From Vitis vinifera (taxonomy: Eukaryota > Streptophyta > Magnoliopsida > Vitales > Vitaceae), in the NCBI RefSeq assembly GCF_030704535.1, contig NC_081807.1:3699001-3763000 (forward strand): a stretch of DNA of 64,000 nt, in the 5' to 3' direction. The position numbers and the translations under genes were made by a program. The stretch's first letter is position 1; every line of letters begins with the position of its first letter. The notes beneath the pieces were generated by a model, which saw only the letters and a program-made list of their open reading frames with translations, was not told the origin of the DNA and did not search any database. Of this stretch, positions 2,724 to 61,100 are shown piece by piece.

Positions 2724-5094
2724 GATTTCCTAGTTTAAAGTATTTTCAATAAATAGCAATTATTTACATACTAGTTATTTTATTTTTTAAATAGAAGTAA
2801 GCATATAAAATTATTTAATTCTCCTGAATTTTTATCCCTCTTATCCAAACCCAATAAAACTACCATCATAATCTCACATTCTCCCCCTCTTAATTTCATC
2901 TCCCATCTTCTTTAGAAAAGAAAAGATTTTTTTTTTTTTTTTGAAAAAAAGCATAAAAACCAAAAGAGAGGTGGAGGACAATCAGAGTTGCCCTCCTACC
3001 GTGAATAAGAAAATAATTAACACATAAGGGAAAAAAATCAATTTAATATGAAATAAATGTAAATAATTTTACCACAAGTCTACTCTAAAGAATATTTATC
3101 TTGACAAGACATTATTTTTTTACTTTCCTATGACCTGCGTTTTGTTTCATTGTTATTTCATAAGATACTGGAGTGTAATTGACTCATTTTATTATACTGT
3201 TAACTCAACTTCAAAATTGAATTATTAGAGAGCTAATATTTTCTTATGGGCTTCAATGATCTCTGTTCGAACTTCTAGTTCATGGTGACGTGTTTTATTT
3301 AAGGGATTTGGATCGATCTATCTAGATTAATGGTTTGGGTTAATTAATTAATTCTAGCACATTAGAGTTAATTAATTAATTAGGACATGAGTGGGATAAG
3401 ATTAAGTAACCTAAACTAAATTTGGGCTCAAGTTGCTTAACAAGGAACCCTTTATAATTTAACCTTTTTAATGGTTTAGGGTTTAGACTTTTGTCATTTT
3501 GTCCATAAGCCCTAGCCACTCTTAAGAAAGGAAGAGATGACCACCCTTCTTTTTGTGCTAAGAGCCATAAAGGGAAAAATTGAGTGGAAGATTTTTAGGT
3601 AGACGAGTTCTCCAAGGCTCATGACATCTTCCTTGATGTCTTCTTCAGATTAAATTCGATTTGGGAACATCTAGCTCATAGGTATAACACCCATCTCTCT
3701 AAATCTATGTGTGAAATAAGGTTAATATAATTTAGGAAAATACCTAGGGGAGAGGGATGTGAATTGTGTGATTTTTTTTTTAGAAAAAAAAACTTAAATT
3801 AAACAATAATGGAAGCAATTAAATAAATAGAAGAGGAAAGAAAGATGCAAACTTGTTTTATAATGGCTCAGTAAATCCGCCTACATCACTCTCCTTAATC
3901 TCCTTTTCAAGTGAAGACTTCACTAATCAAGGCTTTAAGCCAAACCTTTAAACCAAGCCTCCAAATTTGTACAATTTGATTCCTCACTCAAAGCTTTAAA
4001 CACTTAACCTTTGACCAAATGTTTAACAACTCTTAGCTTAACTTAATAATGGCTCAATACGACGAAAACTAAGATGAAAACAATGTGTGCACTAAATGAT
4101 TTTCAAATGAAAAAATAAATGCACTTGAGTTTGAGAGCTTCCAATAAGAGAAAAGGGTGGGCAAATAAGTTAATGTAGATGTTATCTTGTCAATAAATGC
4201 ATAGAACTTCTCAATTTATAGGAAACCAACCTCGGACACCCTATTTTCCAAAATTCAACCTTAATCGGTTGAGCTCTAGTCAAGCTCTGATTCAATCAAT
4301 TGAATAGTCGTTGGGTATTTAATATATTGTGAGTGACTATTGATCCTTATTGGGCTTCAACTAACCCTTGATCGAACCTTGACTGGTGCTCAACCAGGAA
4401 AGGTTGAGCCTCTTCCAACAACATTGAGGTTTTGGAAAGGAGAATTTTGGAGCCTTGACATGTCTTTAAACGAGAGCACTTAACCAGTTGAATCGATTGT
4501 GAGGGGGGCTTGAACAATTAGGCTAAAATTAACTCTAAAACTTCCCTTTTTCAATCCAAAACTTTCCATCACTTAGGCAACTCAATTAAAAACCTATGTA
4601 AGTCAATTTTAAAAGAATTTGGCCTAAGATTTCACTTATTAACTCATGTTCATTCAATTTACAAACACTTAAACTTATTTTTATGAAAACTGAGTATGAA
4701 TGAATGCATGAAAAACACTTTAATCCTAAGTGCACCCAAAGAATTCGTCTTACAAATTTATCTTAAACTTAATGAGTCTATAGGTATCCACATATTCATG
4801 TTCTTTGAACTCCTTTTATGCGAACTCGAGCTTTCTATGTATTTTCTCAATGTAACTTGAAACTTTTAATTGATTAACATATTAGTTCACTTAACCATGT
4901 TTTGCTGTCATCAAAACATATTTAGGAAACCCTTGAGCTAATACTATGTATTTGTTTGATTTTTATTGTCAAGTCTTCCACTGTGATGGATTTAGAGAGC
5001 TTTCAAGATAGATTGCATGCATTTTATGAGATTTAGGGTCAGAGAACAAAGTAATCGAGGGTTATCAATAATATAAAAAATAAAATAAAACATA
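2724..5094. other. Intergenic, probably repeat-derived, no gene seen
   Basis: No credible coding frame. A homopolymer pair (T run about 2929-2942) lies at the left. The stretch 3280-5050 has a different, less AT-rich texture, with phrases such as TTAATTAATTAATT, CCTAGGGGAGAGGG and repeated GGTTGAGC / CAACCAGG words that recall degraded LTR-retrotransposon sequence in eudicots. I see no clear LTR pair, primer site or protein, so this is only a suspicion. Confidence 0.3.
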
Positions 5095-6088
5095 ATAGAC
5101 AATTTCAAATAAAAGATTCTATTATTAGAAAAATGTTTTTTAAAAACTACTTTTTATGCACTAAATACATAAATTTTTTCAAGATTCACTTTGTATTTAT
5201 TTTATCCCAAAGATTGGGTGAAAAATTATTATAAAAGTGATTAAGAAGAATTTAAAATCAATTTCAAAGTAAGTCTCAATGTGCGAATACAAATTTAAAA
5301 AGTATTTTTGACGATGCTTCTGATAAGTCGTTAAAATAACAAAAATTGATTTTTGTAATAAGTACCAAATATCTATTGTTTTCAAGGAAATTCTTTCATA
5401 CCTTTTTTATAAATTACTTCCAAACCTAGGCTTGATTTTGTCTAGAATTAGTGTTTATTGTTTGTATCAAATTTGTTAACATCAAGACTCAACTTTTTTG
5501 GTCAAACACCTTATGGTAATGCCATTATTTTTTTTATTCACTTAAGTTAATCAAGGTGTATGTAAGCTAATGTCTTATGCCATATTTGACTGACACATGG
5601 GAATGTAGAATTAAAATAAATAATTTATTTTCATTCTTATTTACCTTTAAATATAAATGAATTTAATTATTTTAATTCTTATATTTGGATGCATTGAAAA
5701 TATAAGGTTGGAATGATTATTTCTTTATATTTCAACGTCTTGCTAGAATGACAATATAAATAAAAAATAAATAAATTGATAATAATACCCTTATATATAA
5801 TTTAAAATGATTTTTATTATTTTAAAAGAGCATTATTTAACAATTTTTTATTTGGCTAAATAATAAGATTAGGAAAAATAATATTTACTTAATAAATAAA
5901 AATTAATAATAAAAAGTCATAAAACCTTGACAGCAAACATGACATAATATTTCTCAATCCATCTCTCTCTCTCTCTCTCTATATATATATTTTGGTAATC
6001 TCTCTCTATATATAAATGTTGGTAAGATCCAATAAGTCATTCCCAGTATTTATTCAAGGAAAGCAGGCAAAGTTTGTTGAGATAGAAC

Positions 6089-6334
6089 ATGGAGGTGGGA
6101 AGAGTTAAGGCGGTTGCAACAATTTGTTTGGTCTTTTGGATGATTGTAGGGCAGCCCAGTGCGGCTTCCAAATGCTACGATGATTGCTATTCAGCTTGTC
6201 TACCAGAACTTAATACTCCTATGAAGTGCGATATAAAATGTAAGTCAGAATGTGGGGAAACTCCTTCACCCGGCCTTACTCACTCTTGCAAAACTAGCTG
6301 TGCATTGAAATTTTGCAGCAATCCAAAACTTGGT

Positions 6335-6387
<53 letters not shown>

Positions 6388-6601
6388 ATTTCATCTGTTC
6401 TCCCTCTTTCCTTCATCTTATTGCTTTTCATAGTTTCTTTTTTGTCAGTTTGGTACTTCTCTCTCTCTCATTTCATCTGTTCTACCTCTTTCCTTCATCT
6501 TATTGCTTTTCATGGTTTCTTTTTTGGCAGAGGCCACAAAAGGTGAAAGCTGTGTGGAGGCTTGTTCCAAGATGTGTAACAAGAGCCATTTATTGCCCTA
6601 G
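6089..6601 (+). CDS. Thionin-like secreted cysteine-rich protein, copy 1
   Basis: Exons 6089-6332 and 6531-6601; 315 nt, 104 aa. The donor is CTTG|GTAC, the acceptor GGCAG at 6526-6530, intron phase 1. Residues 1 to about 26 form a signal peptide (hydrophobic core ICLVFWMIVG, small residues before the mature SKCY). The mature part carries 12 cysteines in CxxxC and similar spacings and ends CNKSHLLP. This resembles the plant thionin-like protein family (proposed defence or reproductive peptides, secreted); function in this copy is inferred only. A CT microsatellite and a TATATATATA stretch at about 5961-5990 could serve as a pyrimidine/TATA promoter. The intron carries a tandem duplication that copies both splice-site contexts (see findings). 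A paralogue follows at 8850. Confidence 0.8.
6331..6530 (+). repeat. CT microsatellite and tandem duplication inside the intron of thionin-like copy 1
   Basis: Copy A about 6331-6448 and copy B about 6450-6530 share TTGGTACTTCTCTCT, TTTCATCTGTTCT, CCTCTTTCCTTCATC and a terminal TTTCTTTTTTG-CAG. Copy A is longer only because its CT tract is expanded. Each copy ends in a usable 3' splice site (CAG at 6446-6448 and 6528-6530). Confidence 0.85.
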
Positions 6602-8849
6602 TTTCTCACAAGACTTTGTATCTTTTGAGTCTTGAGAATTGAGTTGTCTACTAAATAAATAAATCAGTAAGAATAAATGACTTAAATCCTAAGTCCTTGT
6701 TTGGATTAATTGAATAATGTTATTTCAGTCTTCTCATCTTCTTAATCCAATGGAATTTGGGGTTGGTAAACAAAGCAAGAAAAGCACACCCATTCTGTTA
6801 TAAATAAAAAAATTTATATTTTGTAATTCAATAAATAAAAATAATTTTCATATATTAAATTATATATATAATTTTATAATATATTTTAGATATATTTTTT
6901 TAGTTATTCTTTTTTAATTATAAATTTTTTTTTGTTTAATAAAATAAATTATATAAAAAGTAAAAAAAAATGAAAAATATAAATTGATGAAATAATTTAT
7001 TCTATTTGATTATCAATCAAATACATAATCTTGATATTTTAATTCAAGATAATTGAATTAATTTTGATACAAATTATTACACCCCAAAATTGCAAACAAT
7101 ACTACTATTTGTTGAATGAAATAAAGGGTTCGGGGTTGGCTAAGATCATTTTTAAATAAAAATAATTTTTCACCTTTAGATATTGTCTTATTTATCTAAA
7201 AATTTATTTTTAACTAAAAATAAGGGAAAAAAAAAATTCTCTCTTGCTTATATGAAAAAAGTACTTTTAATTGAAAATAAAATCACCTAAAAAATTAAAG
7301 AGGTGCCTCTCATATTACAACAAAAGAGTTACTTTGAATATTAGTTTGAAAACTAAAATGGATCTTTTAGTAGAACAACTATTTTTCACCCAAAATTCTT
7401 CAAAACATGCATATAACAAGATTTGATTGGGAGATCAAAGTTCTATTGAACGATACTATTAAAATACATATATGAGCATATGCTAAGTCGGGTGGTTTGG
7501 TCGCCTCTACAAGCTTCTAATAGAGTTTAAGCCGGTATGATAGATTTCATTTGAATTATATTCCGTTGGAGGATAGAATAAAATATGTATATCTAAAAAT
7601 ATCATATAAATATTTTAAAATATTTTTTTTCAATGGGATGTTATCCTTGAATATTTTTTCCAATGACATTGAAGAAAGAAAAAATCAAATATTGTGGTGG
7701 AAGAAAATTTGATGTGATGGAATGTGGTTGAGCATATGGTAACTATAGCTTCAAAAATGATATAATTTCAAAAACAATGTTTGGTAAATTAGATTATTAA
7801 ATTGTTTTGAATATGTTAAATATTTAAATAATTTTGATAAAAAAATAAAATAAAATAAATTATTATATTATTTAACTAGTTCTTATTATTTTTATGTTTT
7901 AAAGGAATATTACTATTTCTCTATTTTTTTAACTAAGTTTGAGACAACACATTTATGATGATAGATTTTTTTTTTCAAAAAAAGAAAAAAAAAATTAAAA
8001 AGGAAAATAAATATGCAAAACTTGTGAAAGGAAGTTTTAAAGAGATAATAGACAATTCAAAATAAAATATTTTATTATTAGAAATTTTTAAGAATTCCTT
8101 TGATAACACATTAAATAACAAGAATTGCTTGCTAGCGATTTCTCAAGAATTATTTCAAATAAATTTCTAAATTTTAAAAATTGCTTTTTAAAGCTTTGTG
8201 AAATATTTAATTTTTAAAAGAAATGAATTTGATAATTTTAATTCCCATATTTAAATACATTAGGAATAAAAAGTTGGAACGATTATTTGTTTTAATTTCA
8301 TCAATGGGGATATGAATAAAAATAAAAATAAATAAATTGATAATAATATTCTCCCACATAGTTTAAAACAATTTTTTATTTTTATTTTAAAAGAACATCG
8401 TTTCAGAGTTTTCTTCTTGACTAAATATTAAGATTAAGAAAATTAACATTCCCTAAATAAATAAAAAAATTAATCATAAAAAATCATAAAAAATTTATAA
8501 AAATATAAGGTTAAAATAATAATTTTAATATATTATAAATTATTTTCTATACCAAGGAAATCAAAATACCTCATTTTGGAGATCAATTGAAATCTCGCTC
8601 GTGAGTGGATATCATTCTAATCAGAGTCATTTTTATTCTAAATAAGAAAAAAAAAAAGAAAAAAAAAAAGATATGGATAGACACTCTTAATTTCCTTGTA
8701 TCAACCATGACCTAATATTTCTCTATCTATCTATATATGATGATTTTATATATGATATTTCTAGTACATACTGAATCATTCCCAACATTTCTTCTTGTGG
8801 GAGTAGAGATTATACAGAGGAAAGCAGGCAGAATTTGTTGAGATAGAAT
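6602..8849. other. AT-rich spacer between the two thionin-like genes
   Basis: No gene seen. The first about 450 bases are the downstream part of duplication block A. From about 8047 onward the sequence is the upstream part of block B. A/T homopolymer runs at 8646-8670 interrupt the otherwise similar promoter region of copy 2. Confidence 0.5.
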
Positions 8850-9754
8850 ATGGAGGTGGGGAGACTCAAGGCTGTCGCAACAATTTGTTTGGTGTTTTGG
8901 ATGATTGTAGGGCAGTCCAGTGCGGCTTCCAATTGCTACAAGGAATGCTATTCACTTTGTCTACCCCGACTTCATGATCCTTTGATGTGCCAACTACGAT
9001 GTGACGTACAATGTAGTGGGGGATCTCCTTCACACACCCTCATTCACTCTTGCGAATCTAGTTGTGCATCGAAATTTTGCGGCGATCAAAAGCTTGGTAC
9101 TTTTCTTGCCCTTTCTCTCTTTAGTGGAAAGTGTGTTTTCATGCTCTTATTAAAAAAAATAAAATCCATAAAATAAGAATCTCGATTTATAAAATCCAAA
9201 CTTTTTATATCTATATACAAATAATTAAAATTTTGTATATTTTTCAATCATGTTATCAAGAACAATTTTCTATTTTTAGAATAAAAAATTAAAAAATATG
9301 TTTGACAGTACAAACATATTGAATAATTAAAAAAAATTATATATAAAAATTATTTAAAAATAAGTTAAAAATATTTTAAGTTTTCAAATAGTTTTTTTAA
9401 CAAAATATTAAAAAAAAAAATTTAAAGTCTGTTCTAAAAAATTGTTTTTAGAAATATTTTGAAAAATGATTACCAAACAAATCCTTATTTTTTATCATTG
9501 AGGTGCTATCTTTTAATAATATAAATATTAATTTTGACCACCTTAAATATCATCTTTAATCTATGAATGTAAAGAGTTTTAGAATTTTATTATTAATTTC
9601 ATATTTATTATGTAGAAATACATTTTTCCCTCTCATTTTCTCAATGTTTCATCTTATTGCTTTTCATGTTTCTTTTTGGTTAGGGGTCACAAAACATGAA
9701 AGCTGTGTGGAGGGTTGTACCAAGATGTGCAACAAGAACCATTTGTTGCCCTAG
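8850..9754 (+). CDS. Thionin-like secreted cysteine-rich protein, copy 2
   Basis: Exons 8850-9096 and 9684-9754; 318 nt, 105 aa. Donor CTTG|GTAC and acceptor GGTTAG sit at the same place and phase as in copy 1. The N-terminal signal peptide (MEVGRLKAVATICLVF...) is nearly identical to copy 1. The mature part keeps the same cysteine framework and the CNKNHLLP ending but differs at many residues between cysteines, so the mature region has diverged faster than the signal peptide. The intron is 587 bases against 198 in copy 1; the extra DNA (about 9240-9485) has foldback character. Both genes share the 5' leader GGAAAGCAGGCA...TTGTTGAGATAGAA just before ATG. Secreted defence-type peptide is the family expectation; no direct evidence of role here. 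Confidence 0.8.
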
Positions 9755-27824: not shown

Positions 27825-30800
27825 GTTGTTAAAGGAGAAAATGGCCTCCAAGTTACCTTCTGTCCCTGGTCTGTGGTTCTTATTGTATTTTCAATGCAGT
27901 GTAGTCCCTGGGGTCCCATTTTGTATCGAGTCGCTTACTGTGGGCTGAGGAACCATAACCGTGTACTGCTTCTTGTAATCCTCATTTGAAAAATTGACAG
28001 TTGGATTATTAGAGAGAAAAAAGGGGGAATGTTGCTGGAGAACTTGGAACTGGAGGGGTTATTTGTTTGTTTATGTGCATCTACAAAAAAAACTTGCCTG
28101 ATTTCTTTTTGTCCTTTGTACTTTTTCTTCTGGGTTGCCTTTTCTCTCTCCTTCATAAGCACCATATCAATGAAAGGACAGGCTTACTAATTAGGTTTCA
28201 TCGTGAAATAATTAATTAGCTCCTTAGCCTTTTGTCGCGTTTGTTTTTTTATTTTTTGCTAAAAATAATTTATTTTTAAAATTTAGGTTATTTGTTTTTT
28301 TATTTTTTTTATGACTTATTATAAATTTTTTATTGAATAGAAAAAATCAAAATATTTAATTTTTTTTAAATAAAAAAAATAACATATTAATTTTTATTTA
28401 CTTTTTAATACTTAATAAAAATAAAATACTATAAAAACAAATAAACTAATATTTAATTTTATTAAATATTAAGTTTTTATTTAGAATTAAGCAAAAAAAA
28501 CAAACAACATATTGTTCTCAGTTCAATATCTGAATTGAATGTGTCTCTTTAGTTCATCTTTCCAAATGGATCGGGATCTTATTATTTTTCACCCATTATC
28601 TCATGATAGCGAGACATTCCCAGCATTACCTACATTTCTAGTTAACATTTATTTCCACCGGGTAACATTTTGAGTACCAGTTTTGATCTGTGCCTTGCGG
28701 AGACAGTGATTCAAATTCTCTCTCAAATGAATTAGTTCCTTTTGTAATTGTTAGGACTGGTAGCACCTGTTAAGTCTCCAAAAGTGTGCGTCAATATTAT
28801 GCCATGTGGAAGAAGTAAAACAGATTGGATGCATACTTGTCATCATCTCAGCAAAATAAAATTGTCTTACTAGTAATTGAATGATTTGCATTAACATTAG
28901 GTTAGGTTTGGTTTCCAAAAGTGGTGGGGATAAAAGAAAAAAAATCATATTCCCATGTTTAATTATATTATTAAAAAATATATAAAAAAATTAAATATAA
29001 TTAAAATTGAATAAAAATTTATATATTTATAAATTATTTTATATTTAGGTATAAAAAAATAAAATAAATTTATATAATAAAAAAATAATTCATTGAAGTT
29101 AAATCTATTTTTATTTTTCCTTATTTTTTCTTTTATTTTAGTTTTTTTCTCTATTTTCTTTTCTTGTATTTTTCTCCAACATATCCATCCTTAATACTTT
29201 TAATCAGAACTGAAATAAATTCGATGAGTAAAATAAGGTTTGGAACAAAACAAGGCCCGAAACAAAGCTTTCTATTTGTAATTGAAGACTTCTTTGATTC
29301 AGATTCATCACTTCTAAGCTCTTTCGACGATTTAAGCGAGTATGAATCGTAGTTCATTCTATGTTCTAGAAATCATATTTTCCCTAAGGAGGTAGAATCC
29401 ACATTAAGCAATTTAAGCTAGCAGATTTTGGTTCAGCAGTAAAATTTTAGATTTTACTCGAATAATTTTGATTATCAGAATTTTTTTCTCTTTTTAGGTT
29501 GTCATGCACTCTCAACATTTTATAACTGGGATCACTAAAACTTTCCACTAAAAAAATATAAGGTACTACTTCAATTAATTGTTTATTAAAAACCTTGATA
29601 ATCATGTTATTTGCCAGCTATTCAACGTCTGTTCCTAGTCAGTGAACCTGGTATGTAAGGCATAGCTTTCAGCCAAATTGATTTTTCGTGCTTAAAGAGT
29701 GCTGAATCTAGCGTTACATACTCTCTCTTGAAAAACCAATAGGCAGCATCCTCTTATTTCCTTGTCAGCGCTTGGAACTTGGTCTTAACATTTTAAGAGG
29801 CAAAACCCTACATCAATTTAACACTATAATGGCAACGCCGACACCGCCCTCGATTACGCTGCCTAATTTGATAACTAACCTTCAATGGTACCTTAGTTTT
29901 CCTCTTCATTGCCTGCATAATAGAGATTTTCTATACTTATAGCTTCATTTCAACCTGACTCAGATTCATGACATACCATTATAACAAGATTCTTTTGATT
30001 CACTAAATTAAAATATATGGAAAAAAAACCTCAAATTTTAAATTAATATTATATTCATTTATTTAAAAATAATTTAGAATACATACACTTTTTAATAAGT
30101 CATATAATTATTCCTTAAAATACCCTTTATAATTGTCATGCTATCAATAACAATTGACAACTACACTATTTACTTATCATGTTATCAATATCAATTGACA
30201 ACTAAACTCTTTCACATAAATATTTTCCCTCTTTTTAAAAAATAATTATATGACTCATAAAAAAATACTTGTATTTCAAATTATTTTTAAATAGATGAAG
30301 ATAATTCTGATTTAAAAAACTTAGGTTCCTTTTTCCTTATCTTTTTATATTAGCAAGTCAAAACCCACTTTTTCCAAGATTTTACGTCCATCTTTCTTTG
30401 TATTTTTGTCCAAATCTATGATAATTTCTACCACTCTTATAAATCTTTATTTACCTAGTGGGTTCAGGGAGCCCCAAATCCTGCTAAGAAGTAAGAACAA
30501 TAATTTCCAATCACCAATACAGAAAAGATTTAGAAGGAAGAGAAAAACAAGGAAAAAATTAACATACGATACTACCTTGGGTAAATCAAACTTTGTAAGG
30601 GTGGCTATGAGAGCAAAAGTCATAATCTGTTAACAGTACATCCAGCTCCAAATGCTGCAATGTGAGAATGATTCTAGAGCACTGCAGACAAAATGGTTTA
30701 CATAAAAAAAAAAAAAAAAGTCAACAATTCATCTTTCCTCAACACTCTGATCGGATCAACAATAATTTTATCAAATTAATTATGGCACAAAATCCTGCAA

Positions 30801-54000: not shown

Positions 54001-54533
54001 GAAAATGCACTGAGATGTTTAGGGGAGTAAAAGTGATAAAGGGGTGTTAACTCATATCATGGGAGGAAACTTTGCGCAAAGTTCCATTACTATTGATGGG
54101 TGGCTCCACGATTTCTCATGGGCACAAACATCCCATGTAATGAATCCAATACGCTTGTGTATAAAAAATACGTTTGATAATCTTTAATTGTTTACAATAA
54201 AAAACGGAGATATTATGTTTTTGTAAATTTAAATAAATGAAATAAAAAGTTTTTAACTTTGACTTGTTTGACCCTAGTTAATTGTTATAATTGTTAACAT
54301 TTACATTCTTTGGTAAGAAGGATTGTAATTACTTTGAACCTAGCCTCTAGGAGTTTGATTATAAATTACTAATATTAATGGTGTTTGGTTTCATCCACCT
54401 TAAAAATAATAAAATTAAGGGATGCTTTAATATATTTGAAAATTAATTTTTTTTATAAAAAGAATTGTAAATTATATCTCCTATTTGTATTTATAATTGA
54501 ATTTTTTTTATCCATGAAAATGTATTAATATTT
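51016..54533. other. AT-rich intergenic DNA upstream of PERK
   Basis: PERK leader and promoter lie immediately right of 51015. The rest has A/T homopolymers (51940-51971), AAT microsatellites (about 52860-52884, 52986-53008, 53144-53161) and no credible gene. Small open frames (for example 53717-53932, + strand) show no family motif. Confidence 0.4.
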
Positions 54534-54822
54534 TGTTGGCAGATCGGAGGGTTGGCCGCGTCTATCAACTCCCCTTGTGTTCGTCGTGAGCGCTTGGGTG
54601 AATGCACTATAAGGTTAGGGTATGCGCCTTTCCTAACAGCAATTGCTTTTAGGAAAGTTGGTAGCGTCTGAGGTCCTACAAGTGGTATCAGAGCCGAGGT
54701 CACGGGTTCGAACCCTAGGGGTGTCGTTGGGGGGGAGATTGTTGGCAAATCGGAGGATTGACCACATCTATCAACTCCCCTTGTGTTCGTCGTGGGCGCT
54801 TGGGTGAATGCACTATAAGGCT
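54534..54822 (+). mobile_element. TRIM-like LTR element fragment
   Basis: A 147-bp 5' LTR (54534-54680) runs from TGTTGGCAGATCGG to CCTACA. A 13-bp primer-binding site TGGTATCAGAGCC (54683-54695), complementary to initiator tRNA-Met, follows two bases later. A tiny internal part ends in a purine run GGGGGGGAGA (about 54729-54738). A second LTR starts at 54740 (TGTTGGCAAATCGG) and matches for about 80 bases before being cut off near 54820. No protein is encoded. The internal part contains GGGTTCGAACCC, which resembles a Pol III B box. Confidence 0.75.
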
Positions 54823-55780
54823 AGGGTTTGAGATTATTCCTTTTGGTTGACAATTTTTTAGGATCTCTTAGTTCGAGAAATTGTCTTAATTAGGATTTTT
54901 GCCCTAAACTTTTATTTTAGTAAACTTTTAGACAATTTGAAGTGGTTTAGATAATGACAAAGTGGTTGATGTGTTAGTATTTTTATTATTATTATTTCTC
55001 GAAGTTGAGCTTTGAGGATGTTAGTATGCTAGTATTTTTTTACTTACTTTGAACAAAAAATTGGTAATGAGTGACTTTCCAATTGCAAGATGACTGTTTG
55101 AGTTATATGTAATTCGAGTCTTTAGACTTGAGATATGAAACAATTGCCCTTAGAGTGGGTTATGGGGTGTGACATATTAGGTATGAAAAATCACAGGTGG
55201 TCTCTCAATTGATAAATATGTTGAATATGAAAAAAATAGTATATAGTTTTACCAACTAAATGCATCTAACTCCTTAAAGTCTTATACTATTAGCAACTAT
55301 ATTCCATTTTTCACACCCCAACACAATATTCCCTCATACTTTTTAATAAATTATTTGAAACCCTTATTGAAGTTTTAAGGTCAAAATCTTTGACATTTGT
55401 AGAGTTGAATAGTGCTTTCAAGAATTAATACTATAGGGTTAAAGTTTGTAGAGTTTAAGAGATGGGAGTTAAAGTTTTGAAAAATGACTATACTATAGGG
55501 TTTTTGAGTGAAACAATTTTTAATAAAACATGCCCATTTATACTTAAAAAACCATAAGAATTATAGAGAGTTTCTAATTTTAAAACATTCAAAGAACTAG
55601 TTTTTTGACCTAAAAACGAAGTGACAAACTCAAACCATGTTCCGAAAATTTGAAACCTCGGGGTGATTGGGGGTTGTTGAATGTATGAAACTTTCGATTT
55701 TTCAATTTATCCCTATTTTCTCTAGGATTTTTAATTTATTTTTACGTGTTAGTCATTTCATAAATTTTATCAATCGATGC

Positions 55781-56859
55781 ACACTTACTAGGAATGGAAA
55801 TTTCACGGGTCAATCGGGTCACCCGCCTTTATTGGGATGGGTATGGGAAAGTTTTGTGAAACCCGAATCGGTTTCGGGGTTGGTATGGGTTTGTAGATAC
55901 CCACCCTTCCCCGCCCCGAAATTATAATTACCAACATACATAGAGACTCTGGGTTTGAATCTGATTCTGATATGATCTAGTGGGTAAGAAGAGAAATGAG
56001 GTTTGGGGAAGATGAAGAGTCAGTGGTGGGGTTGCCCAACAAATCCATTTTCAGATACAATTCCCCACTGGTTCAGGTTTGTTTGATTGGCTTAGTATGC
56101 TTCTGCTGTCCAGGCATGTTCAACGCCCTCTCCGGGATGAGGGGAGGTGGGCAGGTGGATGCCACCGCCGCCAATAACGCCAACACCTTCCCCTCTACAC
56201 CACCTTCGCCATATTCGGCGTCTTGGGTGGTGACATCTACAACATCCTCAACCCCTGTTTTACCCTCTTCGTTGGTTGCTCAACCTATGTCCTCTACGCT
56301 GACTCTTTCCTTTACTACAACCACTACCAGCACCAGGGCTTCACCATTGTCGTTGCTGCCATCCTCGAAATCGGAGTAGGACTGCTCTGGGTAAGGCAGG
56401 GAGCTATCATGACGTCGTACCCCCCGCCAGGGAGGAAGGGTTCATACATGTCGCTGTTCTGGAGCATCTTCAATATGGAGGGCGTCATCAGTGGGCTCAT
56501 CCCCTTCATTCTGAACTACAACCGAAGCGAGGCTGCGTCCGTGAACGACGATACTTACATTGGGTTCATGTGCTTCATGTCCGCCGGCATCATCCTCACG
56601 TTGGCAATCCTACACTCGAGCTACGTGGTTCGGGACGACGACAACCACTGTACCAACATCAAGTACTCCGATGTGTCGACGAAGGTTGTCGAGATTCTAA
56701 AACTGTTCCAGAATTGGAAGATGTTGCTGATGGTCCCGACAAACCCTGCCCCGTCCCAGGTATGGGACGAGGATGAGAAAGAGATTTATATAATTGGGAC
56801 GAGAATGGGGTAGGGGTGGCCCCGCCCAAACCCGCCCTGTTGCCAATCCTAACACTTAC
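55781..56859 (+). mobile_element. Non-autonomous hAT-type element carrying a host gene fragment (Pack-hAT)
   Basis: The element spans 55789-56851 (1063 bp). Perfect 8-bp duplications ACACTTAC flank it (55781-55788, 56852-56859), the hAT duplication length. The ends are inverted: TAGGAATGGAAA on the left and, read from the right, TAGGATTGGCAA, of the TAGGNNTGNCAA kind common in plant hAT elements. Subterminal regions are rich in ACCCG/CGGGT words on both sides (about 55806-55920 and 56735-56840). The middle is a captured UNC93-like sequence (separate entry). No transposase is present. Confidence 0.85.
55996..56738 (+). pseudogene. Captured UNC93-like (MFS transporter family) gene fragment
   Basis: Frame 1 starts MRFGEDEESVVGLPNKSIFR and continues with NSPLVQVCLIGLVCF...GMFNALSGM...VDATAANNANT. 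At about 56187-56192 the frame shifts by two bases; the second frame then gives LYTTFAIFGVLGGDIYNI, CSTYVLYADSFLYYNHYQHQ, AIMTSYPPPGRKGSY, FWSIFNMEGVISGLIPFILN and ends near NWKMLLMVP, where the element's own GC-rich end begins. This is the N-terminal part (several membrane segments) of a plant UNC93-like protein. No intron interrupts it. The frameshift and truncation make it non-functional as a transporter. It is far more GC-rich than the surrounding DNA, fitting its origin as coding sequence captured from elsewhere. Confidence 0.85.
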
Positions 56860-57183: not shown

Positions 57184-57624
57184 AATAGTGTGATGTCCCA
57201 CATCGGATAGGGGAGCCACATCGGATATGGGAGAATGTTCTTGGCGCTATATATGTAGAGGCTCCTCTTAACCAAGTAGACGCGTTTTAAAGCCGTGAGG
57301 ACCCTCTTGGGCCCAAAGCGGACAATATCTACATGGTTGGGTGTGGGTCGTTACAAATGGTATCAGAGCCGATCCCCGACCCTGGTGTGGGGGTTTGTTT
57401 GGCTTTGTCTGTTTGGCCCCGCAATCCCATGGGACACAACGAGGACGTTGTGTCTGCATGGGGGGGTGTTTGTGATGTCCCACATCGGATATGGGAGAAT
57501 GTTCCTGGCGCTATATATGTAGAGGCTCCTCTTAACCAAGTAGACGCGTTTTAAAGCCGTGAGGGCCCTCTTGGGCCCAAAGCGGACAATATCTACATGG
57601 TTGGGTGTGGTTCGTTACAAATAG
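57184..57624 (+). mobile_element. Intact TRIM retrotransposon with 5-bp target duplication
   Basis: The 5' LTR 57189-57355 (167 bp) and 3' LTR 57471-57619 (149 bp) both run TGTGATGTCCC...CGTTACA. The primer-binding site TGGTATCAGAGCC is at 57358-57370 and a G-rich purine tract lies just before the 3' LTR. The target duplication AATAG is at 57184-57188 and 57620-57624. The LTRs differ at three substitutions over the shared 149 bp plus an 18-bp tandem duplication (CACATCGGATA unit) in the 5' LTR, so insertion is recent. There is no coding sequence; movement would need proteins in trans. Confidence 0.93.
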
Positions 57625-58184: not shown

Positions 58185-61100
58185 ATGCCTTCTCGCAGGA
58201 GAACGCTTCTCAAGGTCATCATCCTCGGCGATAGCGGGTGTGTACATATATTTTATGTTTTTTTGTTTTTGTTTTTGTTTTTGTGCTTCTAGGAGATTTT
58301 GGATTTGCGGATCTTTCTAGATCTTTCTAGGCGGAGGTTCATTTGAAACCCTAGGGGATTTTTCTGGTTGGTGAGGAACAGTAGGAAAGGGAAAGGAATT
58401 GGAATTTTTGGAGTTTTTGAGCTTTGGGATTTTAATTTTGGGTTTTGAATTGTTTGGGATCTCTTTGGGGGAAAAACTTTCCCATGGATGATTCGGATGT
58501 TTGGTTTGGTTGTGGTGGATTTGTTTTGTTTTATGGGTGAGAAACCAAGGAAAAGTAGTGAGATTCGGAATATAATTTGGTTTTTTTTCCCTCGTTTTTC
58601 TCAGCAACCAAGCAGAGGATTAGATGAATCTGGATTACTTGTTGAGTTTATGTAGTTTTGCATATTGACTTGAATTTCTCGGAGATGTTCTAAGGAATAT
58701 GGTTTGAATCTGTCTCTTGTTTGTTTTTAATTTAGTCTGTTTGGGATTTTACAGGGTGGGGAAGACCTCTTTGATGAACCAGTATCCTTTGGGGCTCCTT
58801 TATTGGACTGAAATTTCATGAGTTTAAAGTTCATGTTGGTTGTCAGTGAAGCTAATACATCTAATACCATTATTTCAAATAATGTGATTTCTCCATGAAA
58901 AAGGACATTTGGTTTTGGTGTGTTTGCCTTGAGAATTTGATTTTAGATATGTGAATAAGAAGTTTAGCAATCAATACAAGGCAACTATCGGAGCTGATTT
59001 TTTGACGAAGGAAGTGCAGTTCGAAGATAGGCTCTTCACTTTACAGGTTAGTGATAATTTTGAGTTTCTTGCTCAACTGGCAAAAACTTGTAAGCTTATT
59101 GTATGCGGGGGCGTGTGTTCCAAAATTCGATGTGCTTGATTTGGCATTTTCAGTTGGTTTTTATGTCTTTGTTTTGGAATTGCTTATCTGATCTTTACTT
59201 AGGTTTAAAAGCTTTGACATTGGCTTCTTTTTTTCTTGTTTGAATAAAAAGTGCCTTGTTCCATGAAGTAATTTAGGCAATGCTTTTAAAATCTCTTACC
59301 CCATTTTCAATTTCGCTTATCGTCACTGCATTTTTTTAATGAGATTATATCATCCTATTATCATATGTTTCTCAGTTAAAAGAAAAAGAAAAAGGAAATG
59401 TGAATGAAGTTTCAGAAAATGAAGAGTGAACTACTTGTGATTGTTTTGGTTTTTCTCACCCTTAATTAAATTGAAGTTCATCCAGATTTTATATTTTAAA
59501 ATTGTCATAGATTTCAATTACGACTTTAGCTTGTGGGTTATCTTTTTGCCTAGCATTTGGGGGGAGGGGGCATACAATTTTTAGTCCTTCATTTTTATTT
59601 TGAGAAAACAATTTATAAGCTTAATTTGTCACATTTTTTTTTTTTTTTAATTATCCTCAATTTATTGTATGTTTACCACATGATATTGACCAGATTATAT
59701 TCATTCTTTAAGTGATGTTTTGTGGTTAATGCTAAACATGCAGATCCGAAAAATAATTTGTTGATGTCATCCCCTGGTGATAAGGATTTTATATACTGTA
59801 ATGGTTTAATGAAGAGTAAAAGGGTAAAATAAAGGAAAACTAACAAAATAGATTAAAGTTTTTGTTACCTGGATGTCCCAATGTATAAGCACTCATGGTG
59901 AGCATAGACTTCTAATAATATGCCATGTGTGGAGTAAAGGTGGTGGAGCACCCCACTTGATTCTTGAGTGTCAGATGTGGCATATTAATTTTTGGATTGG
60001 AGGAGTTTGTCAAACTCATCTACATGACTAAGGGGAGGTAGCCCTCTCTTCTCTAACTAGAGAAGCATTCATGAAATTTGACTGCTGCTCTTCCTCAAAG
60101 ACAGGCCAGTTGTATTAATCAGGAAATTATTGTTAAGTTAGTTTTGCCAAAATTGTGTCTCACATTATTCTTGCATGTGTGGACCATCTCTAGGCGGCCC
60201 ATGTATACATCCTATGTACTTTGGTGTGCTCTTGGCGCTTTTAATGTATCTTTTGTTTCCGTATGTAAAGAAAGGATACTCTTGCATGTGTGGAGGCAAG
60301 CATTTATCCTTTGTTGTTAGTTCCATCAGAATGTTTATAGTCATTACCATTCCAACACAAATAAGTCTAGTTATATTATTGCTACATCATGCATATTTAG
60401 GCTGCTGTTGTACAAAATCCCTTAATTTTCATTTGTTATTGGACAACATGTCATTATTTGATTGTGTAATGATTCTGTAAGCATAGGCATCAATGTTTGC
60501 ATGCCCTTGATGTAAGCATGGCATTATCAGGCAGAATTCATTTGCTTGACAACTAATTGTTTTGTAATGAAGTGCAAGTTGGATATGTTTTCTATAGTTT
60601 GTTAGTACCATAAGGTTTTTTAACTTGCCACCTGTTCCCGTAGACTTGGTATGATATTTGGCACTCTTAGGTGGCCAAATATTTAAAAGATTAATTTTGT
60701 TCTCTATATCAAAAGTGTTTTATACCCTTTTCATGGAAGCCCCATTAAGAGTCTTTGGGCAACTCAAGAGAGATTGTGCCTTGATTGCATGAATTATGAC
60801 TATATAACCAATGAGTTAGGTCTCCCTATCTGCATATACTTATCTTGGACGAGGTTCATGGCAAGCCCCAGCTCAGGTTTTCGCATCCATTTTCACAAGG
60901 TTGATGTCAGGGTGAGATCCAGTTGTATCATAATATAAAATCTAAACCAAATAATTGGGATAAGGATGTTTCTGGTTCTTCGTATTTGGTACCATTAAAT
61001 TCTGGGTATGTCTTTCTGAGTTTTTACTTGGGTAACATGCTAACACTTTTTGCGCTAAAATCTAGTCCACTTCCTTTCGTTTTGGCAGATCTGGGATACA

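Follow-up and report, generated by a model that had tools for sequence, protein, structure and literature searches.

Fragments of host genes inside hAT transposons have been described in both plants and animals. Pack-hATs were named and studied in maize and rice (PMC8903248), and the maize elements Ds2 and Ds-l4 carry captured gene fragments and are said to become methylated and to decay (PMC3260210). Grapevine hAT elements, including Hatvine-6, contain transduplicated gene pieces (PMC2528002), and hAT elements made up 208 of the 370 animal Pack-TIRs, for which gap filling or template switching was proposed (PMC8277862). The first-pass annotation of the present locus had considered gene capture by hAT elements to be much less often described than capture by MULEs and Helitrons, a view corrected by the maize Pack-hATs, maize Ds, grapevine hATs and animal Pack-TIRs. 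In a narrow literature search, no paper on an UNC93-carrying hAT was found, the terminal-repeat strings returned no matching paper on transposons as judged by title, and nothing useful was obtained on the gene structure of plant UNC93 genes. The term hAT was absent from the main text of a 2026 gene-capture review (PMC13317346).

The element investigated here lies in a 64,000-nt stretch of the Vitis vinifera genome, referred to as the window. It is very probably a non-autonomous hAT (Pack-hAT) that shares its ends with transposase-bearing kin, obtained an UNC93 piece by repair copying, was moved in trans, and was then methylated and decayed.

The window element and its relatives

The element occupies positions 55789-56851 of the window (1,063 bp) and is bordered by two copies of the target-site duplication ACACTTAC, read directly at 55781-55788 and 56852-56859 on the plus strand, on which all its features are given. 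The duplication was exactly 8 bp long, and the adjoining bases were not alike. The left hAT end (55789-55934) has TAGGAATGGAAA as its terminal repeat, is rich in G and C runs in its subterminal part, and matches the left end of the larger relatives L024 and L025. The right hAT end (56739-56851) has TAGGATTGGCAA, read on the minus strand, as its terminal repeat, and 10 of the 12 positions agree between the two repeats. Junction alignment placed a 12-bp filler at the left joint (55935-55946); the donor and L024/L025 lacked it at the equivalent position. The filler is followed by 792 bp of captured UNC93-like DNA (55947-56738), composed of 49 bp of leader and the first part of exon 1. The coding part begins at the donor start codon in a first frame (55996-56187) and continues, after a frameshift, in a second frame (56193-56738) with 182 codons free of stops that matched Pfam UNC-93 (E 1.4e-13). 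The reading frame was broken once, between 56187 and 56193, and the first 64 residues alone gave no Pfam match. No transposase was present within the 1,063 bp. The UNC93 piece had no match in NCBIfam, only chance-level matches among solved structures, and no confirmed relatives in viral_contigs and genome_contigs.

Duplication and end match are weak evidence when the window is taken alone: an 8-bp repeat with at least 10/12 matching ends occurred about 2.1 times per shuffled window and 5 times in the real one, while the same pattern with YAGG at both ends was found in 0/100 shuffled windows. The GC content was about 0.5 within the element versus about 0.3 outside. GGG/CCC runs numbered 16 in 55789-55935, compared with a mean of 3.9 in shuffles, and none of 2000 shuffles reached 16. 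Folding of the left end showed no excess stability (119/200 shuffles equally stable), and the right end was slightly more stable (25/200 shuffles equally stable). The left end of the window copy was about 40 bp shorter than in the longest siblings.

A search of the genome (495.6 Mb, 21 contigs) yielded at least 70 matching pieces, a lower bound as are the other counts, the best 40 of 168 candidates having been scored. The right end of the window element had at least 40 matches including its own (best 40 of 141 candidates), and neither siblings nor a donor were present inside the 64-kb window. Sequence was examined for the donor, for 19 matching places and then for 27, 2 and 1 further places. 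The UNC93 piece was found, whole or in part, in at least 15 elements: the window element and at least 14 others, 9/14 of the latter with perfect 8-bp duplications. The piece was nearly full in five elements (window, L010-L013), shared a common internal deletion of about 250 bp in six (L014-L019), and had lost its later part as well in four (L020-L023). Only its last 45-52 bp were kept in L026, L030, L034 and L035. Among the 19 elements bearing the piece (15) or the tail only (4), the duplication matched at 8/8 bases in 12, at 7/8 in three and at 6/8 in two (L022 and L034), while no closed element ends or duplication were found for L018 and L021 (2/19). L016 and L017 were taken as one insertion that was later duplicated, because they share an identical duplication and lie 14 kb apart; the duplications of the remaining siblings were all different. 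Sibling ends were TAGGAATGGCAA-like and TAGGATTGGCAA-like, and the TAGGAATGGCAA-like ends set the family apart from Ac/Ds, which has different end sequences.

Under a closure rule that allowed up to two duplication mismatches over several candidate ends, 8/27 further places closed, with 8/8 duplications in L029, L030, L035, L045 and L048, and with 6/8 in L034, L043 and L044, weak closures that may be chance matches. L033 closed in addition, and 18 places showed no closure in the stretch examined. Duplications of 8/8 were also found for L024, L025 and L027, and L028 did not close. L048 (element 198-1091) and L043 (203-858; 6/8 duplication) contained other inserts between these ends, and one frame of each insert had no Pfam match. 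The window observation is settled by the occurrence of the same ends and fragment elsewhere with other 8-bp duplications. The family shows the 8-bp target-site duplication and short terminal inverted repeats of hAT elements and the mobility as a unit of Pack-TYPE elements, the whole unit being found at several sites, each with its own duplication. The Pack elements are non-autonomous, with a host gene fragment inside and the donor elsewhere, as in Pack-hATs.

Larger kin with perfect 8-bp duplications were L024 (5,651 bp), L029 (5,869 bp), L025 (9,702 bp) and L033 (about 9.7 kb; duplication CGCTCAAT). The Pfam domain Dimer_Tnp_hAT was detected in L024 (E 3.7e-27) and L025 (E 4.3e-30), as was the hAT-like RNase-H domain (E 4.1e-11 and E 9.1e-33, respectively), so that hAT transposase domains are encoded between the same ends in kin of autonomous size. 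The open frames of L029 resembled those of the transposase-bearing kin. The ends of L024 matched the Pack elements over about 187 bp on the left and up to about 190 bp on the right, and the kin transposase would act in trans on the Pack elements by recognising these common ends. Over the 5,860 bp compared, L025 and L033 shared 98.5% identity, which points to younger movement in the kinase-bearing kin.

The surroundings of the element contained several further features. A TRIM-like, very short LTR element at 57189-57619 had LTRs of 167 and 149 bp that were 97.9% alike over a 143-bp stretch, and a 5-bp duplication AATAG at 57184-57188 and 57620-57624. Its first LTR is followed by TGGTATCAGAGC, which we take to be a tRNA-Met-type primer site. 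A GTPase gene, presumably Rab7-like, starts at 58185 and contains ATIGADF, WDTAG and NKVD motifs further on; about 1.3 kb separate its start codon from the Pack-hAT, which lies upstream. A 92-bp direct repeat (54533-54624 and 54739-54830, 91% alike) was located about 1 kb upstream of the Pack-hAT. Elsewhere in the window, two similar genes for small cysteine-rich proteins (6089-6433 and about 8811-9200) were 80-81% alike at the DNA level, and two self-inverted stretches (29993-30363 and 1485-1826), with arms 68-71% identical, are perhaps decayed MITEs or foldback elements.

Donor loci and exchange of cargo

The captured piece of the window element was 91% identical to a locus on contig C16 (G000:C16:26622079-26622868). 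A protein search with donor exon 1 returned 20 rows (22 candidates, all scored), comprising one full-length unbroken row at C16 26622119-26623312 and 19 rows inside the 15 elements. In the donor locus (L009), the start codon lies at 3629 and the captured stretch extends from 3580, 49 bp upstream, to about 4388, a point still within exon 1, and another exon-like frame begins at 5175. The captured DNA began at donor base 3580 in 10/15 copies and at 3586-3595 in the other five. Copies reaching the right joint ended at 4372-4388, and the window copy, which lacks about 94 bp at this joint compared with L011, ended at 4369. These near-identical start and stop points argue for a single capture. The UNC93 elements contain about 809 bp of donor 5' DNA between the left end of about 187 bp and the right end of up to about 190 bp, and the main pieces of the copies were about 90-94% identical to the donor. 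No ends of this hAT family were found near the donor (8 kb, L009) at up to 3/16 mismatches. The first-pass annotation had described perfect 8-bp duplications, inverted ends and an UNC93-like coding fragment, and all were confirmed at the positions given above. It had also proposed a hAT-type element and the capture of DNA from the start of an UNC93-like gene, and had raised the prospect of further copies, all of which is borne out by the transposase between the same ends in L024/L025, the sibling duplications and the C16 donor. The refuting case that it named, a full-length parent gene flanked by the same hAT-like ends, did not apply to the C16 locus.

A second cargo was recognised in L026, in which 603 bp matched at 94.5% a locus on C4 (L056) with an unbroken 460-codon frame. 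The partial protein of L026 contained Cyt-b5 (E 3.4e-7) and a weak FA_desaturase match below the cut-off (E 0.01), and we refer to this cargo and to the C4 locus as sphingolipid-desaturase-like, a name of our own assigning. A later part of the same stretch was present in L030, L034 and L035, and all four elements combined the UNC93 tail with the desaturase-like piece. The right joint of L026 was identical to that of the UNC93 elements in the alignment of L026, and no ends of this family were found near the desaturase donor (4 kb, L056) at up to 3/16 mismatches. The simplest order would be that the UNC93 piece came first and was then replaced from the left by the desaturase-like piece; that cargo was exchanged follows from the 45-52 bp of UNC93 left beside the desaturase-like piece in these four kin. 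In L020-L023, the left part of the UNC93 piece was kept together with about 515 bp of common other filler (145 bp of it in L021).

Kinase-domain frames were found in L025 and L033. CDK-like kinase exons with introns occupy L025:3506-4655 and L033:1451-2570 in these 9.7-kb elements, with L058 as the likely donor; in L025 they lie behind the transposase, are split by an intron-like GT...AG stretch, and the second exon frame is still open. A protein search gave a match at C19:2764580 (92%) and fragments of the kinase close to four further right ends (one on C10, two on C17, one on C4). Similarity between the C19 locus and L025 was confined to element bases 5099-8156, in two blocks of 97.4-97.9% identity that are separated on C19 by about 770 additional bp. 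Frames at C19 extend past the shared stretch on both sides and include an N-terminal MGCICC-type frame. No ends of this family were found at this locus (L058, 9.9 kb, match strand only) at up to 3/16 mismatches, and it is likely the kinase donor. Other element copies of the kinase were 79-88% alike at the protein level and carried stops, being more decayed than L025 versus the donor.

The three cargoes differ in what they reveal about copying. The UNC93 stretch is confined to leader and exon 1, and the desaturase donor forms a single open frame across the stretch, so neither tells whether DNA or RNA was copied. The kinase cargo of the larger kin alone can discriminate, and its introns imply that about 3 kb of the kinase gene was taken as DNA. 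Capture would have occurred by DNA copying during gap repair inside the element, with a template switch, a model suggested by the UNC93 and desaturase donors that lack family ends, the later exchange of cargo within the same ends, and the intron-bearing third cargo. The exchange and the 12-bp filler at the left joint fit such gap copying better than a fusion of neighbouring insertions.

Decay of the copies and competing explanations

Judging by its frameshift and right-joint loss, the window copy appears decayed, and a protein function is unlikely. It differed from the donor at 66/790 positions, with C>T or G>A accounting for 50 of these differences. The differences fell 17/19/28 on the three codon positions, a third-position lean that we read as mutable sites plus donor divergence, probably not selection. 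Decay was then counted over 11 copies, L020-L023 being excluded as short. Sites with a transition in at least one copy amounted to 85/112 for CG, 86/108 for CHG and 56/245 for CHH, that is 171/220 versus 56/245 (Fisher p ~1e-33), with the excess present at every codon position; because the copies are related, the sites do not count as wholly independent. When only changes confined to a single copy were counted (CG 33/112, CHG 31/108, CHH 37/245), the excess was smaller but persisted, at 64/220 versus 37/245 (p 3e-4), and other changes at the same C sites showed no context effect (1.3, 2.3, 1.6%). The desaturase cargo followed the same trend (21/48 CG, 15/62 CHG, 11/204 CHH). Selection on the fragment was rejected as the main reading, CG/CHG transitions being equal across all codon positions. 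Methylation at CG and CHG marks silenced plant transposons, and the mutation pattern suggests that the copies were methylated in this manner, silenced, and left to decay.

The five full UNC93 copies were 87-90% alike, and a tree of 12 rows was star-like with long tips (0.04-0.10 for the copies versus 0.025 for the donor). Two inner branches were starred, one separating the full copies and donor from the shortened copies and one joining L016 with L017, and 7/9 inner branches were open. Such a shape would be expected if the copies arose in a burst and then decayed separately, and the UNC93 burst looks old.

When every row was polarised against the majority of all other rows, third-position CG/CHG transitions were found at 2/81 sites in the donor, at 8-15 of 79-82 in the five full copies and at 4-11 of 61-62 in the six shortened ones. 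The donor count remained at 2 (2/83) when the parent state was taken wherever any copy shares it. At third-position CHH sites, the donor (4/123) and the full copies (3-6 of 120-122) showed no difference. The copies appear to have been methylated for a long time, unlike the donor; lasting methylation or silencing of the donor is unsupported, given that it lacks methylation-type decay, while its mutation record is silent on short-lived effects.

These data bear on whether the family is now regulatory, with transcripts or small RNAs controlling the donor UNC93 gene. The main pieces of the copies are close enough to the donor for some small RNAs, and such regulation is discussed for Pack-MULEs and Pack-TIRs, but this role is quite improbable in view of the 2/81 transitions in the donor against 8-15 of 79-82 in the copies, and of decay at all codon positions in the latter. 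Donor and copy pairs form a natural test of fragment-driven donor silencing, to which the mutation record answers that it was not lasting. The hAT type, the UNC93-like capture and the copies had been correctly anticipated by the first-pass annotation, and the donor passed its test for flanking ends; its ideas of rarity, of an active family and of small RNA against the parent fared less well: activity has in its favour only the younger movement of the kinase kin, as the UNC93 burst looks old, and the donor count speaks against lasting transcriptional silencing.

A fusion origin, in which two adjacent hAT insertions on either side of a donor gene segment moved together with it (the Pack-CACTA/Pack-TYPE model), has been published for Pack-TYPE elements, among them hATs. 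It is unlikely here: the UNC93, desaturase and kinase donors show no family ends at up to 3/16 mismatches (the kinase locus on one strand), the model requires an insertion within an exon of the UNC93 gene, which now has an open frame, and cargo was swapped in four kin while the ends and 45-52 bp of UNC93 stayed. Earlier insertions at the donors may nevertheless have been excised since. It is scarcely credible that the element is no hAT product at all, namely a pseudogene between chance repeats, a transposon from a different superfamily such as MULE or Helitron, or a processed pseudogene. An 8-bp repeat with 10/12 ends does arise about twice in a single window by chance, yet the independent sibling duplications, the presence of hAT transposase domains in elements with these ends and the duplication of exactly 8 bp all stand against such an explanation, and in our view the comparison of siblings refutes it. 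Pack-MULEs, which have 9-11-bp duplications and long terminal repeats, were rejected on the exact 8-bp duplication and the ends of about 12 bp. A processed pseudogene was rejected on the lack of a poly-A tail in the window element sequence and on truncation within donor exon 1, with hAT ends on both sides. Beyond the preferred reading of a Pack-hAT filled by repair copying, it is conceivable, though we would not yet rank it as probable, that one hAT lineage served as a cargo-exchanging vehicle. Its ends would stay while UNC93-like, sphingolipid-desaturase-like, intron-bearing CDK-like kinase and other pieces are swapped by repair, leaving scars, and the cargo copies would record transposon-type methylation while the donors stay clean.

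Comparison with described hAT elements

Like the Pack-hATs of PMC8903248, the present elements have hAT ends, a gene fragment within, several copies, and cargo from more than one locus. They resemble Ds2 and Ds-l4 in their 8-bp duplications, size of about 1 kb, genic filler and donor elsewhere (PMC3260210). With Hatvine-6 and other grapevine hATs, they share the combination of a common hAT transposase and common ends with a variable, often genic interior, whereas Hatvine-6, compared by description only, has a 9-bp duplication and 13-bp ends, unlike the present element (PMC2528002). Animal hAT Pack-TIRs are nearly all single-copy, whereas the present family is multicopy (PMC8277862).

Gene uptake by Pack-type hATs is debated, and the order of events here favours repair-type copying over neighbour-insertion fusion; the capture model of PMC8903248, a fusion of neighbouring insertions, fits the present family less well. 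Unlike what the accessible part of that report describes, one genome here holds three donors, transposase kin and a cargo exchange with a common scar, represented by first-cargo copies, shortened copies, and second-cargo copies with the 45-52-bp scar. The Pack-hAT kind is thus already known, and what is seen here in addition are the donors, the moving kin and the later swap of cargo.
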